Below are positions 1,361 through 9,521 of a stretch of DNA of 64,000 nucleotides, piece after piece. Under the pieces are notes generated by a model that saw only the letters and a program-made list of their open reading frames with translations, had not been told where the DNA came from and did no database searches. Positions within the stretch are counted from its first letter, which is position 1. Each line of letters starts with the position of its first letter. Made by a program: the position numbers and the translations under genes. Source of the stretch: Flavobacteriales bacterium (GTDB taxonomy: Bacteria; Bacteroidota; Bacteroidia; Flavobacteriales_F; PHOS-HE28); assembly GCA_030584065.1 (NCBI GenBank), contig CP129489.1, forward strand, positions 3,698,235-3,762,234. The letters are read 5' to 3'.

Positions 1361-4048
1361 CTAGCGCTCGCTCACGCGAAGGGCAGGGCCCTGGGTGGAG
1401 GGCTTGTCGAGGTAGAGCGGCTTGCTGGCGAATGGAGCATCGGCTCCATAGCCATTGGCCACCAGGCGATCCGATGCGATGCCTTTGGCGATGATGGCAT
1501 TACGGAGCGCTTCGGCCTTGGTTTGCGCATCGGCGCCACCGGCTCCCAACTCGAGCTTCAGGGTGGGGTAGGCCTTGAGGATCTCGGCCGTATTGGTCAC
1601 CTGGGCATCGGAAGCGGGGGTGAGCGCGGTGCCGGCATAACCCACCTCGTTGAAGGCGATCCAGGTGGTCTTGTCGGCGGGGATGGCGCGCATGATGAAG
1701 GTCATCAGGTCGTTCTCCATTCCGCCACTGGCGCCCTTCACCTCGAAGCCGGTGATCAGCTTGGTGCTGTAATCGGTGGCCCGGGCCTCCATGTGCCCGA
1801 GGGCCTCCCGGTCGGCGTCGGCGGCCTCCTGGGTCGCGCCCTCGGCATGGGCTGCAGCATGGCCGGCGGCAGGCGCGGCCTCCATCGCGGGCACCGCAGC
1901 GCCAGCCGCGTGATGGCCGGCCTCATTGATGTGCGGGGCGATGATAAGCGCTACGATCGAGGTGAGCTTGATGAGGATGTTCATCGAAGGACCGCTGGTG
2001 TCCTTGAAGGGATCGCCTACGGTGTCGCCGGTCACGGCTGCCTGGTGCGGGGGCGAGGGCTTGTCGCTCTTGTGCTTGTAGTACATCTGCCCGTCGATCT
2101 CCACGCCCTTCTCGAAGCTCTTCTTGGCATTGTCCCACGCGCCGCCCGCATTGTTCTGGAAGATGCCCATGAGCACCCCGCTCACGGTGATGCCCGCCAG
2201 CAGGCCGCCGAGCGCCTCAGGACCGAAGGCGAAGCCCACGATCACGGGGCTCAACAGGGCGAGCGCACCGGGCAGGATCATCTCGCGGATGGAAGCCTGC
2301 GTGCTGATGGCCACGCACTTCTCGTACTCGGGCTTGCCCTTGCCCTCCATGATGCCGGGGATTTCCTTGAACTGGCGGCGTACCTCGCGCACCATGTCCA
2401 TGGCGGCCTTGCCAACGGCGCTGATGGCCATGCTGCTGAAGAGGAAGGGGATCATGCCGCCCACGAAGAGCATGGCCAGCACGTCGGCCTTGTAGATGTC
2501 GATGGCAGTGATGCCCGCCAGGCCCACGTAGGCCGCGAAGAGCGCAAGGGCGGTGAGTGCGGCGCTGGCGATGGCGAAGCCCTTGCCCGTGGCGGCGGTG
2601 GTGTTGCCCGTGGCGTCGAGGATGTCTGTGCGCTCACGCACCTCCTTGGGCAGACCGCTCATCTCAGCGATGCCGCCCGCGTTGTCGGCGATGGGGCCGA
2701 AGGCGTCGATGGCGAGCTGCATGGCCGTGGTGGCCATCATGCCCGCCGCGGCGATGGCCACGCCGTAGAGGCCGGCCAGCTGGAAGGACCCGAAGATGCC
2801 CGCCGCCAGCACGATGACCGGGAGGAAGGTGCTCTCCATGCCCACGGCGAGGCCGCCGATCACGTTGGTGGCATGGCCGGTGCCGCTCTTCTTCACGATG
2901 CTCATCACGGGCTTGCGGCCCATGGCGGTGTAGTACTCGGTGATGTAGCTCATCAGGAAGCCCACCACCAGGCCGAGGATGATGGCCCAGAACACGTTCA
3001 TGCGGGCGATTTCCAGCACCACATCACCGCGCTGGAACGACATCGTCTCGGGAAGCATCCACCCGATGACGAAATAACTGGCCACGGCCGTGAGCAGGAT
3101 GCTGCCGATGTTGCCCTTGTTGAGTGCGGCCATCACGCTGTCGGTGTCCTTGCTGATGCGCACGAAGAAGGTGCCGATGATGCTGAAGAGGATGCCGAGG
3201 CCCGCGATCACCATGGGCAGCAGGATCGGGGAGAGGCCGCCGAAGCTGTCACCGGTGGCGATCACCTCGCGGCCGAGCACCATGGTGCTGAGGATGGTGG
3301 CGACATAGCTGCCGAAGAGGTCGGCGCCCATGCCGGCCACGTCGCCCACGTTGTCGCCCACGTTGTCGGCCACGGTGGCGGGGTTGCGCGGATCATCCTC
3401 CGGGATGCCGGCCTCCACCTTGCCCACGAGGTCGGCGCCCACGTCGGCTGCTTTCGTGTAGATGCCACCGCCCACACGGGCGAAGAGCGCGATGCTCTCG
3501 GCGCCCAGCGAGAATCCGGCGAGCACCTCCAAGGCCTTCATCATCTCCTCGCCGTTCGGTGAGGCGCCATTGACGTACATCCGGTAGAACACGATGAACA
3601 GCACGCTCAGGCCCAGCACGGCCAGGCCGCTCACGCCAAGGCCCATCACGGTGCCGCCATTGAAGCTCACCTGCAGGCCCTTGGCCAGGCTGGTGCGGGC
3701 GGCCTGCGTGGTGCGCACGTTGGCTTTGGTGGCGATGCTCATGCCGATCCAGCCGGCGAAGGCGCTGAAGAAGGCGCCGATCAGGAAGGCCACGGCGATC
3801 ACCCAGTCGCTGTGCTCCACCAGCGTACCGCTCCAGGCCAGCAGCACGGCGGCCAGCACAGCGAAGATCCCGAGCACCTTCCATTCGGCCTTCAGGAAGG
3901 CGCTGGCACCGCTGGCGATGTAGCCAGCCAGTTCCTTCATGTTGGCGTCGCCGGCATCCTGCTTGTTCACCCAGAGCGCCTTGGCGATCATCACTATCAG
4001 GCCCACCACGCCCAGCGCGGGGATGTAGTACATCAGTTCACTTCCCAT
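1361..4048 (-). CDS. hppA: membrane-bound ion-translocating pyrophosphatase with C-terminal OmpA-like domain
   Basis: Integral membrane pyrophosphatase that couples PPi hydrolysis to H+ and/or Na+ export. Residues 1 to about 700 form the multi-span pump. The substrate signature [11 protein letters not shown] is at 202-212, followed by acidic motifs ([20 protein letters not shown]). The segment [10 protein letters not shown] at 481-490 has Ala485 and Gly488 where K+-independent enzymes have Lys and Thr, so it belongs to the K+-dependent class; H+ or Na+ use cannot be told. At 895 residues it is far longer than the usual ~700. Residues 706-760 are an Ala/His/Glu-rich linker and about 765-870 resemble an OmpA-like domain ([17 protein letters not shown], then a KAEAL..GI..DRL..NGYG pattern). 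The pump part is secure; the tail assignment is moderate. Confidence 0.93.
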
Positions 4049-4225: not shown

Positions 4226-5812
4226 ATGACCGCCGCAGCCTTCCGCTGGTCGCTGGCCGGCTTGGCCGCTGTGGCGCTCTCGGGCGCCGGCCTTGATGTG
4301 ATGGAGGTGGATGCCGCCCAGTACGCGGCCATGTCGCGCGATATGCTGGCGCAGGATGACTGGCTCAAGCTCTACCACCGCGGGCGCGACTACCTAGACA
4401 AGCCGCCATTGCTCTTCTGGCTCTCAGCGCTCTCCTTCAAGCTCTTCGGCGTGCACAATTGGAGCTACAAGCTCCCCAGCATACTCTTCGCATTCCTCGG
4501 CGTATTCAGCACGTACCGCTTCGCGCAGCTCTTCCACGGCGCGGCCATCGCACGCCGCGCCGCGGTCATGTTCGGTGCGAGCGCGGCCTTCCTGCTCATG
4601 ACCAATGACGTGCGGTGCGATACGCTCCTCACCGGCTCGGTGGTCACGGCCATCTGGGCGGGCGCTACCTGGATGCAGCAGCGTCGTTGGTGGCAGCTGT
4701 TGGCGGCGGCTGCCGCGGTGGCGGCCGGCATGCTCGCCAAGGGCCCCATGGGTGCTGTGGCCCCCGTGGCCGCCTTGGGGGCCCACCTGGCCTTGGGCGG
4801 TCACTGGCGGGCTCTGCGCGACCTCCGATGGCTGGCCGCTCCGTTGCTCGTGGCCCTCGCCCTCATCCCGATGTGCATCGGCCTCTATGAGCAGCACGGT
4901 GTGCACGGCATCCGCTTCTATTTCTGGGAGCAGAGCTTCGGGCGCATCACGGGCGAGAACCGTTGGAGGGATGATAGCACGGTGCTCTTCTTCACCCATG
5001 AGCTGCTCTGGCAGGTGCTGCCGTGGACGCTGTTCGTGGTCGTCGGTCTTGGGCAGCATGTCATCGCCGCCTTCCGGCGCCAGCCTATGCCGGAGCATGC
5101 CGCCATGGGCGGCAGCCTGCTGGTATTCGCTGCGCTATCGCTGTCACAGTTCAAGCTACCGCATTACCTCTATGTCATCATGCCCTTGCTCGCGGTGCTC
5201 GGTGCCATCGGCTGGGACCATGCTGCGGCCCGATGGGCACGGTACGGGCAGGCCGCCGTGGTCTCGTTCTTGGCCGTGGCGCTCATCGCATTGACGGCAT
5301 GGTGCTTCCCCACGCGCTGGTGGCCCATCATCCCGCTTGCACTTGCGCCCGGCGGCGTTTTGCTCTGTCGTGGTCTGGCGGCTCAGCATCGTGATCAGCT
5401 CTTCACCGGTACGGTATGGGTCTGGCTGGTCGCAGGCCTGGGGCTGAACACGCTGATCTACCCTGAGGTGCTGGGCTACCAGGCCAATGCCCGGGCAGGG
5501 CGGTGGGCGAAAGCGCAGGGGCTGGATGCCAACCGATTCTTTGTGCTGAACGCTGGCGGCACGGCACTCGACTTCTATGCGGGGTTCACCCCGGGAGGAT
5601 TGGCTTCAGCCGAACAGGCCGCAGAGGTGGTCAATCCCGGATTCGCCATCTATACCGACGCTCAGGGCCTGAAGGAGCTGTCGGCAAGTGGGCTCGTGAC
5701 GGATAGGGTGCTGGAATTCGAGGACTACCGCGTACAGCTCCTCTCCCTGGACTTCATCCTCCCAGGGACGCGGGCTGAGGCGACGGACCGTCGTTATGTG
5801 GTGGTGTATTGA
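4226..5812 (+). CDS. ArnT/PMT-like membrane glycosyltransferase (GT39/GT83 type)
   Basis: Polytopic protein of 528 residues with about 10-12 hydrophobic spans. It starts with a membrane segment followed by the acidic loop DVMEVDAAQYAAMSRDM, which corresponds to the catalytic Asp/Glu loop of GT-C enzymes. YLDKPPLLFW at about 54-63 is the hallmark of ArnT-like transferases. Members transfer a sugar from a polyprenyl-phosphate donor to lipid or protein on the outer side of the inner membrane. The C-terminal third is a soluble domain. It is divergent from hppA and not in an obvious glycan cluster, so acceptor and sugar are unknown. A weak box TAACATTG (4214-4221) lies 4 bases before the ATG. Confidence 0.85.
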   Translation: MTAAAFRWSLAGLAAVALSGAGLDVMEVDAAQYAAMSRDMLAQDDWLKLYHRGRDYLDKPPLLFWLSALSFKLFGVHNWSYKLPSILFAFLGVFSTYRFAQLFHGAAIARRAAVMFGASAAFLLMTNDVRCDTLLTGSVVTAIWAGATWMQQRRWWQLLAAAAAVAAGMLAKGPMGAVAPVAALGAHLALGGHWRALRDLRWLAAPLLVALALIPMCIGLYEQHGVHGIRFYFWEQSFGRITGENRWRDDSTVLFFTHELLWQVLPWTLFVVVGLGQHVIAAFRRQPMPEHAAMGGSLLVFAALSLSQFKLPHYLYVIMPLLAVLGAIGWDHAAARWARYGQAAVVSFLAVALIALTAWCFPTRWWPIIPLALAPGGVLLCRGLAAQHRDQLFTGTVWVWLVAGLGLNTLIYPEVLGYQANARAGRWAKAQGLDANRFFVLNAGGTALDFYAGFTPGGLASAEQAAEVVNPGFAIYTDAQGLKELSASGLVTDRVLEFEDYRVQLLSLDFILPGTRAEATDRRYVVVY

Positions 5813-5906
5813 GGTCTTCGCCTCCACCTGCCGGCGTTCATGATTTTTCGTGTTTCCGTGAACAGTCTTGGGCGGGGCGTGTTCTCCCCGCACTAACCCA
5901 TACCCC

Positions 5907-8900
5907 ATGAACTGGTTACCTACCCCTCGTTCACGGTTCCGTGTCATGACACGGGCCGTGCTGGGCGGCCTCTGGGCCGCCGCTGCGCTGTCCATGGCGC
6001 AGCCTTCCCTGGCCCAATCGGGCGGTGCATGCAGTGCGCAAGCCGGCACGCTCCGTGGCTTCAAGGCCACCGATTGCCTCCAGGATGGCGGTACCTACAT
6101 CGGCGGCATCTCCATGGGCGACCAGGTTGTCCCGCCGGGCTTTCAGTCCATTTTCGTCCTTACCAAAGGCCCGGGCCTGGTGATCCAGGCGGTTGCCAAC
6201 CAGCCCATATTCAATGTCTCCAGCACCGGACTTTACACCATTCATCGCCTGGTGTACGATCCCGCCACGCTCGACCTCTCCATCGTCCAGTTCGGTATCA
6301 CCACCGGCTTCGATGTCAACGGCCTGCTCATCCAAGGCGGAGGCAGCATCTGCGCCAGCTTGGATGTCAATGGCACGAGCGTGCTCGTGGACAATCCGGA
6401 TGCCGGCAGCCTGTCGGCGCTGAATCCGGCGCCCTGCCTGGAGGGGGGTGTCGCCATGCTCGATGCAACGGTTGCGGATGCCCCGTACGTGCCCGAGGGC
6501 TACTCCGTGGCCTACGTGCTCACGCAAGGTCCGGGCCTGGTCATCATCGGCGCAGGCGGTGAGCCCTCATTCCAGGTGAACGCACCGGGCAGCTACACCA
6601 TCCACACCCTTGTGTACGACCCCACCACGCTGGATCTCGGCATCGTGCAGCCCGGTGTCACCTCCGGCTTCGATGTCAACAGCCTGCTCATTCAAGGCGG
6701 CGGTGCGATCTGCGCGGCGCTGGATGTCCCTGGCGCCTCCTTCCAAGTGGCCGATTGCCCTGCGCCTTGCACTGCCTTTGCCGGAACGCTTTCGGGCTTC
6801 AAGCCCACGGATTGCCTGCAGGAGGGCGGGACTGTCATTGGGGGCATCTCCAATGGAGACCACATCGTGCCTCCCGGCTATCAGTCGCTCTTCGTGCTTA
6901 CCAAGGGGCCTGGCCTGGTGGTCCAGGCCGTTTCGGACCAGCCCGTTTTCACCGTCTCCAGCACCGGTCTCTATACCATCCACCGGCTGGTATACAATCC
7001 CGTCACGCTCGACCTTTCCATCGTTCAGTTCGGCGTCACCACCGGGTTCGATGTCAACGGTCTGCTCATCCAGGGCGGCGGCAGCATCTGTGCCAGCCTG
7101 GACGTCACCGGAACGAGCGTGCTGGTGGACAATCCGGATGCCGGTAGCCTCTCGGCTGTCAATGGCTCGGTTTGCTTGGAGGACGGCTCTGCCGTGCTCG
7201 CCGCCTCCGTGGAGAATGCGCCCGTTGCGCCTGCTGGCTATGCGGTGGCCTATGTCCTTACGCAGGGCACGGATCTGGTGATCGCGAATGCCGGCGCCGA
7301 GCCCTCGTTCGAGGTGACCGCTCCTGGGACCTATACGATTCACACGCTGGTCTACGATCCCGCGACGCTCGATCTGGGCATCGTCCAACCGGGCCTCACC
7401 ACCGGGTTCGACGTCAACAGCCTGCTCATCCAGGGCGGAGGCACCATCTGCGCTGCCCTCGATGTGCCCGGTGCTGTTTTCGAAGTGAGCGCGTGTGAAG
7501 AGCCGTGCACGGCGGATGCCGGCACCCTTTCCGCCAACACCCTCGAGGACCTTTGCCTGGTGGAAGGAAGTGCGACCTTGAGCGCGACGCCCAATGGCGA
7601 TATCGCGGTGCCTGCGGGCTACAGCGTGGTGTACGTGCTGACGAGCGGCGCCGAGCTGACGATCGTGGGCGCGGGCGCTTCGCCGGAGTTCACGGTGGAT
7701 GCCGAGGGCCTCTACACGATCCACACGCTGGTGTACGACCCGGCGACGCTGGACCTGGGCATCGTTGAGCTGGGCGTGACCACGGGCGTGGATGTGCTGA
7801 ATGCGGTGGTGGCCAACGGACTGTGCGCGAGCCTCGATGTGGCGGGCGCGGCCTTCAACGTGGTGGCCTGCGCGGAGCCTTGCACGGCGGATGCGGGCAC
7901 GCTGACGGCGAACAAGTCGGCCTGCCTCGATGGCACCCTGACCTTGAGCGCGACGCCCAATGGCGACATCGCGGTGCCTGCGGGCTACAGCGTGGTGTAC
8001 GTGCTGACGAGCGGCGCCGAGCTGACGATCGTGGGCGCGGGCGCTTCGCCGGAGTTCACGGTGGATGCCGAGGGCCTCTACACGATCCACACGCTGGTAT
8101 ACGACCCGGCGACGCTGGACCTGGGCATCGTTGAGCTGGGCGTGACCACGGGCGTGGATGTGCTGAATGCGGTGGTGGCCAACGGACTGTGCGCGAGCCT
8201 CGATGTGGCAGGCGCGGCCTTCAACGTGGTGGCCTGCGCGGAGCCTTGCACGGCGGATGCGGGCACGCTGACGGCGAACAAGTCGGCCTGCCTCGATGGC
8301 ACCCTGACCTTGAGCGCGACGCCCAATGGCGACATCGCGGTGCCTGCGGGCTACAGCGTGGTGTACGTGCTGACGAGCGGCGCCGAGCTGACGATCGTGG
8401 GCGCGGGCGCTTCGCCGGAGTTCACGGTGGATGCCGAGGGCCTCTACACGATCCACACGCTGGTGTACGACCCGGCGACGCTGGACCTGGGCATCGTTGA
8501 GGTGGGCGTGACCACGGGCGTGGATGTGCTGAACGCGGTGGTGGCCAACGGACTGTGCGCGAGCCTGGATGTGGCGGGCGCGGCCTTCAACGTGGTGGCC
8601 TGCGCGGAGCCTTGCACGGCGGATGCGGGCACGCTGACGGCGAACAAGGCGGGCTGCCTCGATGGCACCCTGACCTTGAGCGCGACGCCCAATGGCGACA
8701 TCGCGGTGCCTGCGGGCTACAGCGTGGTGTACGTGCTGACGAGCGGCGCCGAGCTGACGATCGTGGGCGCGGGCGCTTCGCCGGAGTTCACGGTGGATGC
8801 CGAGGGCCTCTACACGATCCACACGCTGGTGTACGACCCGGCGACGCTGGACCTGGGCATCGTTGAGGTGGGCGTGACCACGGGCGTGGATGTGCTGAAT

Positions 8901-9233
8901 GCGGTGGTGGCCAACGGACTGTGCGCGAGCCTGGATGTGGCGGGCGCGGCCTTCAACGTGGTGGCCTGCGCTGGTCAGAATGAAGGCTTCTCGCTGACAG
9001 CGTGGCCGAGCCCTGCCAACGACATCGTGCGGGTGACCGTCAGGAATCCCATGGTCCGCGCCGAGATGGGCATCTACACCCTTCAGGGGGAACTGGTGAT
9101 CCCGGTCCGCGCGCTTGCCAAGGGTGAGCAGACCATCGCGGTCGACGTCCAGGAGTTGCCGGTAGGCACCTATGTGGTGCGCGTCATCGGAGGCGATCAG
9201 GTTGCCACGCAGCGCATCATGCGCATGGAGTAA
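5907..9233 (+). CDS. secreted eight-module repeat protein with T9SS type A sorting domain
   Basis: 1,108 residues with an N-terminal signal peptide (Arg-rich start, hydrophobic core, Ala-Gln cleavage region near residue 36). Eight modules of about 122-128 residues follow, each with the core VLT.G..L.I..A...P.F.V...G.YTIH.LVYDP.TLDL and paired cysteines. Modules 1-2 and 3-4 are two copies of an A-B pair; modules 5-8 are nearly identical. The last ~85 residues (WPSPANDIVRV ... YVVRVIGGDQVATQRI) are a type A T9SS sorting domain, so the protein is expected to be exported and cell-surface attached or released. The modules are probably beta-sandwiches (inference). No catalytic motif is seen; a structural or adhesive role is plausible. 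The ATG at 5907 is chosen because it opens the signal peptide. Confidence 0.88.
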   Translation: MNWLPTPRSRFRVMTRAVLGGLWAAAALSMAQPSLAQSGGACSAQAGTLRGFKATDCLQDGGTYIGGISMGDQVVPPGFQSIFVLTKGPGLVIQAVANQPIFNVSSTGLYTIHRLVYDPATLDLSIVQFGITTGFDVNGLLIQGGGSICASLDVNGTSVLVDNPDAGSLSALNPAPCLEGGVAMLDATVADAPYVPEGYSVAYVLTQGPGLVIIGAGGEPSFQVNAPGSYTIHTLVYDPTTLDLGIVQPGVTSGFDVNSLLIQGGGAICAALDVPGASFQVADCPAPCTAFAGTLSGFKPTDCLQEGGTVIGGISNGDHIVPPGYQSLFVLTKGPGLVVQAVSDQPVFTVSSTGLYTIHRLVYNPVTLDLSIVQFGVTTGFDVNGLLIQGGGSICASLDVTGTSVLVDNPDAGSLSAVNGSVCLEDGSAVLAASVENAPVAPAGYAVAYVLTQGTDLVIANAGAEPSFEVTAPGTYTIHTLVYDPATLDLGIVQPGLTTGFDVNSLLIQGGGTICAALDVPGAVFEVSACEEPCTADAGTLSANTLEDLCLVEGSATLSATPNGDIAVPAGYSVVYVLTSGAELTIVGAGASPEFTVDAEGLYTIHTLVYDPATLDLGIVELGVTTGVDVLNAVVANGLCASLDVAGAAFNVVACAEPCTADAGTLTANKSACLDGTLTLSATPNGDIAVPAGYSVVYVLTSGAELTIVGAGASPEFTVDAEGLYTIHTLVYDPATLDLGIVELGVTTGVDVLNAVVANGLCASLDVAGAAFNVVACAEPCTADAGTLTANKSACLDGTLTLSATPNGDIAVPAGYSVVYVLTSGAELTIVGAGASPEFTVDAEGLYTIHTLVYDPATLDLGIVEVGVTTGVDVLNAVVANGLCASLDVAGAAFNVVACAEPCTADAGTLTANKAGCLDGTLTLSATPNGDIAVPAGYSVVYVLTSGAELTIVGAGASPEFTVDAEGLYTIHTLVYDPATLDLGIVEVGVTTGVDVLNAVVANGLCASLDVAGAAFNVVACAGQNEGFSLTAWPSPANDIVRVTVRNPMVRAEMGIYTLQGELVIPVRALAKGEQTIAVDVQELPVGTYVVRVIGGDQVATQRIMRME
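7505..8968 (+). repeat. tandem array of four ~366-bp near-identical repeats inside the secreted protein gene
   Basis: Units at about 7505-7870, 7871-8236, 8237-8602 and 8603-8968 have an exact 366-bp period (122 codons). The last three are nearly base-for-base identical. The first differs in its opening ~70 bases, then matches closely from about 7578. Identity includes synonymous positions, which suggests recent duplication or gene conversion rather than selection on protein alone. Copy number may be mis-assembled from short reads. Confidence 0.9.
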
Positions 9234-9521
9234 CGGGGGTAGGGCCCCGATAGGCCGGGTCCGGGGGCGAAGACGAGCGATCGTCGGGTCCTCCGGATCC
9301 GTGCTTTTCCAGAGGTGCTGTGCCGGGGCGAAGTCCTCCTCGCATTCCGGCGATCGGTGCCGTTTGCGGCATCCCGTGGCCATCGGTTCATCCGCCTGGC
9401 GCTGAAGGCCGCCGCGATTGGCAGGCTTCACCCGGACGCAGCCCGGAAGGAACGGTCCGTTCTGATTACCGTGATCGGGGTATTGCCCACCAGCTCGCCG
9501 GCAGGGTGCTTTGCGGCCGAA

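Follow-up and report, generated by a model that had tools for sequence, protein, structure and literature searches.

Within a 64,000-nucleotide stretch from the genome of an uncultured Flavobacteriales bacterium (hereafter the window), one gene encodes a secreted protein built from tandem modules, some of them almost identical in DNA and others diverged. This contrast raises the question of whether the near-identical part of the gene reflects a recent amplification or an ongoing exchange between its units, and whether changes in module number might alter the reach of a protein held at the cell surface. To answer it, we delimited the repeats, considered how the protein may be exported and folded, and compared the locus with its relatives—among species, and in one case within a species.

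Layout of the gene and its near-identical array

The open frame spans 5868–9233, where the list of open reading frames places a TTG at 5868 ahead of the ATG at 5907. Starting from the ATG, the protein consists of a leader, eight modules of ~120–126 aa recovered with a module HMM, and a type IX secretion system (T9SS) type A sorting domain. The features of the locus are as follows:

4226–5812 (+): PMT_2-type glycosyltransferase (PF13231), the directly upstream neighbour (Pfam; synteny by tblastn)
5907–9233 (+): coding sequence of the module protein, ATG start, 1108 aa (open reading frame list; HMM domain scan, 8 modules)
5907–6032 (+): leader, signal-peptide-like, judged by eye from the translation
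6033–6392 (+): module 1, type A of an older A-B-A-B pair repeat
6393–6770 (+): module 2, type B
6771–7130 (+): module 3, type A; DNA 81% identical to module 1
7131–7508 (+): module 4, type B; DNA 71% identical to module 2
7509–7883 (+): module 5; near-identical to modules 6–8 from 7574 onward, its first ~65 bp diverged
7884–8249 (+): module 6
8250–8615 (+): module 7
8616–8987 (+): module 8; array identity stops at 8971
7574–8971 (+): near-identical array; 366-bp in-frame unit of 122 codons, 3.8 copies; defined by a Tandem Repeats Finder score of 2726 and by pairwise differences
9003–9218 (+): T9SS type A C-terminal sorting domain (Por_Secre_tail; PF18962, TIGR04183), residues 1033–1104

Neither the HMM scan nor Pfam revealed a separate N-terminal domain in the window protein—its modules start right after the leader, and no N-terminal Pfam domain had any stretch that passes alone.

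Tandem Repeats Finder returned a single strong array at 7574–8971 (period 366, 3.8 copies, 98% matches, no indels), the second-best of its six rows for the window scoring only 71. Pairs of units differ at 3/366, 6/366, 3/300, 7/366, 4/300, and 1/300 positions, that is, by 1–7 differences or 0.3–1.9%. A prior sequence-only reading of this DNA had already pointed to near-identical 366-bp repeats, and on this it was right; the interval that it gave, 7505–8968, is also essentially right, although the exact borders are those given above, and where it counted three units the near-identity in fact spans four modules (5–8) and 3.8 in-frame units. As whole modules, 6–8 share 97–99% DNA identity, and module 5 is 93–94% identical to them, a lower value owing to the ~65 bp at its start, which precede the array.

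The near-identity was further said to include silent sites, and a comparison of synonymous differences between units, which the same reading had proposed as a check, upholds this: dS is 0.041–0.063 among modules 6–8 and 0.125–0.149 between module 5 and modules 6–8 (whole modules, with the diverged head included), against 0.76–1.59 for every pair involving one of modules 1–4. These first four modules are diverged, as had been noted, with the nuance that they form an older A-B-A-B pair repeat, in which modules 1 and 3 (81%) and modules 2 and 4 (71%) are more alike in DNA than neighbours are (59–61%). Together, the A-B-A-B arrangement of modules 1–4 and the near-identity of modules 5–8 therefore indicate two layers of amplification in the gene, the older with a unit of two modules and the younger with a unit of one.

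Two other frames of the window deserve mention. Opposite the module gene lies a 954-aa antisense open frame (6567–9431, −), most probably a shadow cast by G+C-rich codons, repetitive because the sense strand is. At 1361–4048 (−), an H+-pyrophosphatase (PF03030, residues 14–703) carries a C-terminal extension of ~190 aa (704–895) that appears OmpA-like by eye and in which Pfam recognized no second domain.

Export, predicted fold, and comparison with known repeat proteins

The C-terminus of the module protein matches PF18962 at 31.4 bits (cut-off 27) and TIGR04183 at 29.5 bits (cut-off 23), and the genome encodes the translocon component SprA (TIGR04189, 2569 bits). The protein thus combines the two marks of a T9SS type A cargo, a Por_Secre_tail at its C-terminus and SprA in the same genome, in keeping with its earlier description as a T9SS protein. 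It is probably anchored at the cell surface via the C-terminal sorting domain, the sequence itself being compatible with release as well as with anchoring. In a wider count for genome G000, 148 of 150 scored type IX sorting-domain candidates exceeded the cut-off; the cell therefore exports a very large set of T9SS cargo.

The module itself corresponds to no Pfam family, since no single family was matched at E 0.01 by more than 7 of the 98 module pairs. Apart from the sorting domain, the other Pfam matches to the whole protein contain no stretch that passes alone and are therefore sums of weak repeat matches, and a candidate match to the NCBIfam P13 porin was rejected, at 33.4 bits against a cut-off of 100. 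A search by sequence for a solved relative gave a single match (E 0.52), which we took as chance, and no description of the module or the locus was found in the literature as judged by titles and abstract starts. For a module pair, AlphaFold2 produced a model with a pLDDT of 95 and a pTM of 0.68 from 98 aligned pairs (the window pair plus 97 of 125 distinct module pairs). The model comprises two beta-rich domains, each with one longer helix, and the pair is accordingly predicted to form tandem Ig/FN3-like beta-sandwiches. In a fold search of solved structures, nothing stood well above the rest and only the general Ig/FN3 class was recovered: the matches were generic Ig/FN3 tandems of many kinds, with Z no higher than 8.0 and TM-scores that were low across the pair. 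Among these matches were fragments of the Aureispira grappling-hook protein GhpA (PDB 9flx, 9flw) at Z 6.8, a value in the range of any Ig/FN3-like tandem, with no sequence relation to the module shown.

Surface proteins with near-identical tandem arrays are already known; this module is not described in Pfam. The closest parallel is with the Periscope Proteins—SasG, Rib, Sgo_0707/SHIRT, CdrA, and CshA—as Whelan et al. 2021 (PMC8201768) and a review (PMC9704523) present them in their main text. According to these texts, Periscope repeats are long (over 50 aa) tandem folded modules of very high DNA identity in surface proteins; most are Ig-like beta-sandwiches, and changes in length have been proposed to arise via intragenic recombination. 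Like the proteins portrayed there, the window protein combines long, high-identity tandem modules (366-bp units, with the module identities of 97–99% and 93–94% given above) with a putative C-terminal attachment signal, and its repeat is a folded domain by prediction (pLDDT 95, Ig/FN3-like matches). Unlike them, it has a T9SS sorting domain and no Gram-positive cell-wall motif, its module is not in Pfam, its four N-terminal modules are constant, and the separate N-terminal functional domain typical of Periscope Proteins is absent from the window copy. Variation in repeat number, another Periscope trait, was counted here between species (7, 8, 9, and 10 modules), the sole same-species assembly being gapped. 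Neither main text contains the terms “Bacteroid” or “type IX”. On the best reading, the window protein would work like a Periscope protein, and we stop short of filing it as a proven one. Repeat number is also described as varying between isolates of Flavobacterium psychrophilum, both for LRR surface proteins and for one protein associated with gliding motility (PMC8400371); these are different proteins with different repeats, and within the portion of that report considered here no relation to the module was seen.

Probable turnover of the array between species and between strains

Module genes related to the window copy occur both in its own genome and in other species. The genome itself holds two more: six modules lie in a frame of 1464 aa, where the best pair reaches 77%, and three in a frame of 721 aa. 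MAG-315 (L040) provides a complete relative of 4+3 modules that carries its own three-unit array set at the corresponding place in the gene. Its array modules are 86–87% alike in DNA and 70–72% like those of the window, with dS of 0.41–0.51 within the set and 0.92–1.21 against the window array. In a further relative, KLAP54 (L045/L047, L048), the modules themselves are broken up, with one contig stopping in module 5 and a second beginning inside a module; because of these breaks we abandoned KLAP54 as a source of copy number.

A tree was built from 74 modules of 14 loci, on few columns and with bootstrap support not settled. In it, module 1 of the window, UBA2426, MAG-315, and KLAP54 forms one clade (98/86), and both modules 1 and 3 cluster by position across these four relatives. 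For modules 2 and 4, grouping by position is only partial and does not extend across all four. The array modules of the window and UBA2426 instead form one clade (100/99), and the three array modules of MAG-315 form a separate one (99/92). Modules 5–8 thus cluster by genome, whereas modules 1–4 cluster mostly by position across species, a pattern that points, for one place in the gene, to homogenisation specific to each lineage or to separate amplification.

UBA2426, the only same-species assembly found, allows a comparison between strains. Its flanks are 99.6–99.7% identical to those of the window; its scaffold has a gap of 13 N (N13) inside the array, for which reason we abandoned it as a measure of copy number. 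Over both flanks, 40 of 13,831 positions differ (0.29%), less than the 0.3–1.9% by which the units of the window differ among themselves, and under positional inheritance alone matching units should therefore differ by only about 0.3%. The two array units that can be anchored, the first by unique sequence at its left and the last by unique sequence at its right, instead differ at 9 of 663 positions (odds ratio 4.7, Fisher p = 3.3e-4), a comparison weakened in that UBA2426 bases near the gap may be a blended consensus of units. At site 7649, all four window units carry C and all three UBA2426 copies carry T, the one site on which strain-wide clustering rests. Reshuffling of units after the two strains split would best account for the excess of differences in the array. 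Both lines of comparison—the tree, in which modules 5–8 group by genome and modules 1 and 3 by position, and the strains, in which array units differ more than the flanks and one site distinguishes all units—lend weight to the earlier proposal of recent amplification or ongoing exchange.

We consider it likely that the gene encodes a Periscope-like stalk, exported by the T9SS, in which homologous recombination renews the segments on the anchor side. Such a stalk would consist solely of tandem Ig/FN3-like modules, possibly rod-shaped, secreted by the type IX route and held at the surface by the C-terminal sorting domain. Its four N-terminal modules would be the stable part, evolving mostly position by position, and its four anchor-side modules a recombinogenic array, in which near-identical 366-bp units could misalign and recombine via unequal crossing-over or gene conversion. 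Recombination of this kind would add, delete, and homogenise units and would give a constant tip carried on a stalk whose length can change—the working principle of Periscope Proteins. Length may then vary within the species, and the architecture and predicted fold suggest that module number would change the reach of the protein, as the sequence-only reading had supposed; the stalk might also have some adhesive function. If this account is true, length-changing surface stalks, so far described mainly from cultured pathogens, would also use the type IX route in uncultured Bacteroidota.

Spread of module genes and alternative accounts of the array

A PMT_2-type glycosyltransferase adjoins a module gene in the ten other loci where it was found by tblastn, nine of them in the first synteny set (UBA2426 included) and one among 16 further loci. 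Three of the ten hold complete frames, six run off a contig end in or after a module, and UBA2426 is gapped. In complete frames beside the glycosyltransferase, species differ in their module count: the window has 8, L040 7, L051 10, and L052 9. A similar non-module N-terminal domain precedes the modules in six relatives (L051, L065, L068, L069, L072, and L081), and Pfam identifies that of L051 as GEVED. More broadly, the module-pair profile matches 30 of 395 genomes of the class and 9 of 196 genera.

Module pairs at least 90% identical in DNA are present in 7/52 module ORFs (UBA2426 row left out) and in 6/16 further ones (three of these 16 have a single module); the loci were chosen by match strength, and these fractions are not population rates. 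The remaining 45/52 and 10/16 module ORFs have no such pair, and the near-identical state is recurrent, not universal, among module ORFs. It also takes different forms: in G317, a genome in a single contig, the alternate modules that come first share 95–99% identity and neighbours 57–64%, corresponding to a two-module unit, and G352 has about ten copies of a 375-bp unit in a row.

These distributions bear on an alternative that we think unlikely, though not negligible—that the array stems from a single recent chance amplification, by unequal crossing-over or slippage, involves no evolved length device, and will decay as modules 1–4 have done. The four window units carry distinguishing bases at 8 sites, and their differences fit a plain duplication tree, ((1,2),(3,4)), without requiring conversion; modules 1–4 resemble an older, decayed two-module duplication, and most relatives' module genes lack a near-identical pair. 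On the contrary, separate near-identical sets occur at the same place in relatives and also in other families, and the array units of the two same-species assemblies diverge beyond their flanks, where one event before the split with no later exchange fails as an explanation.

That the repeat was expanded or collapsed in assembly strikes us as quite improbable. Assemblers do fail at such sites: draft contigs end inside module regions 18 times against 7.0 expected (46 module ORFs; Poisson p = 3.4e-4, calculated with rounded genome sizes and contig counts and with at least one broken fragment, G034 contig 297, left out), and UBA2426 is gapped at the array. However, the window genome was assembled as a single 3.92-Mb contig (99.97% complete), in which the four units are told apart by their bases at the 8 sites, and the independent same-species assembly breaks at the array, as it would at a true repeat. 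The exact number of four units rests on one assembly. Because contigs end so often inside module genes, the number of modules that a draft metagenome assembly gives for such a gene is not to be relied on. Finally, purifying selection on the protein sequence alone, without DNA exchange, is favoured by the share of silent changes among variable sites of the window units (5 of 8, versus 28% expected if random; p = 0.04) but is ruled out, to near certainty, by the silent sites themselves, with dS of 0.04–0.06 among modules 6–8 against 0.92–1.21 between the window and MAG-315 arrays.

Beyond the window, the stalk account might be extended to a larger claim that we put forward tentatively, as plausible but somewhat short of probable. 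Under this extension, a group-wide T9SS stalk system would be built on the non-Pfam Ig-like module, and its glycosyltransferase-linked locus would keep a constant tip while anchor-side modules are renewed per species, and even between strains, by one- or two-module units; the system would have been overlooked because drafts break inside the arrays. Separately, a neighbouring module protein in genome G024 (L052:10090–15939, 1950 aa), of which only the sorting domain is named above the Pfam cut-off, has three modules followed by long near-identical cysteine-rich repeat blocks that precede this sorting domain—the same pattern, here formed by another module.
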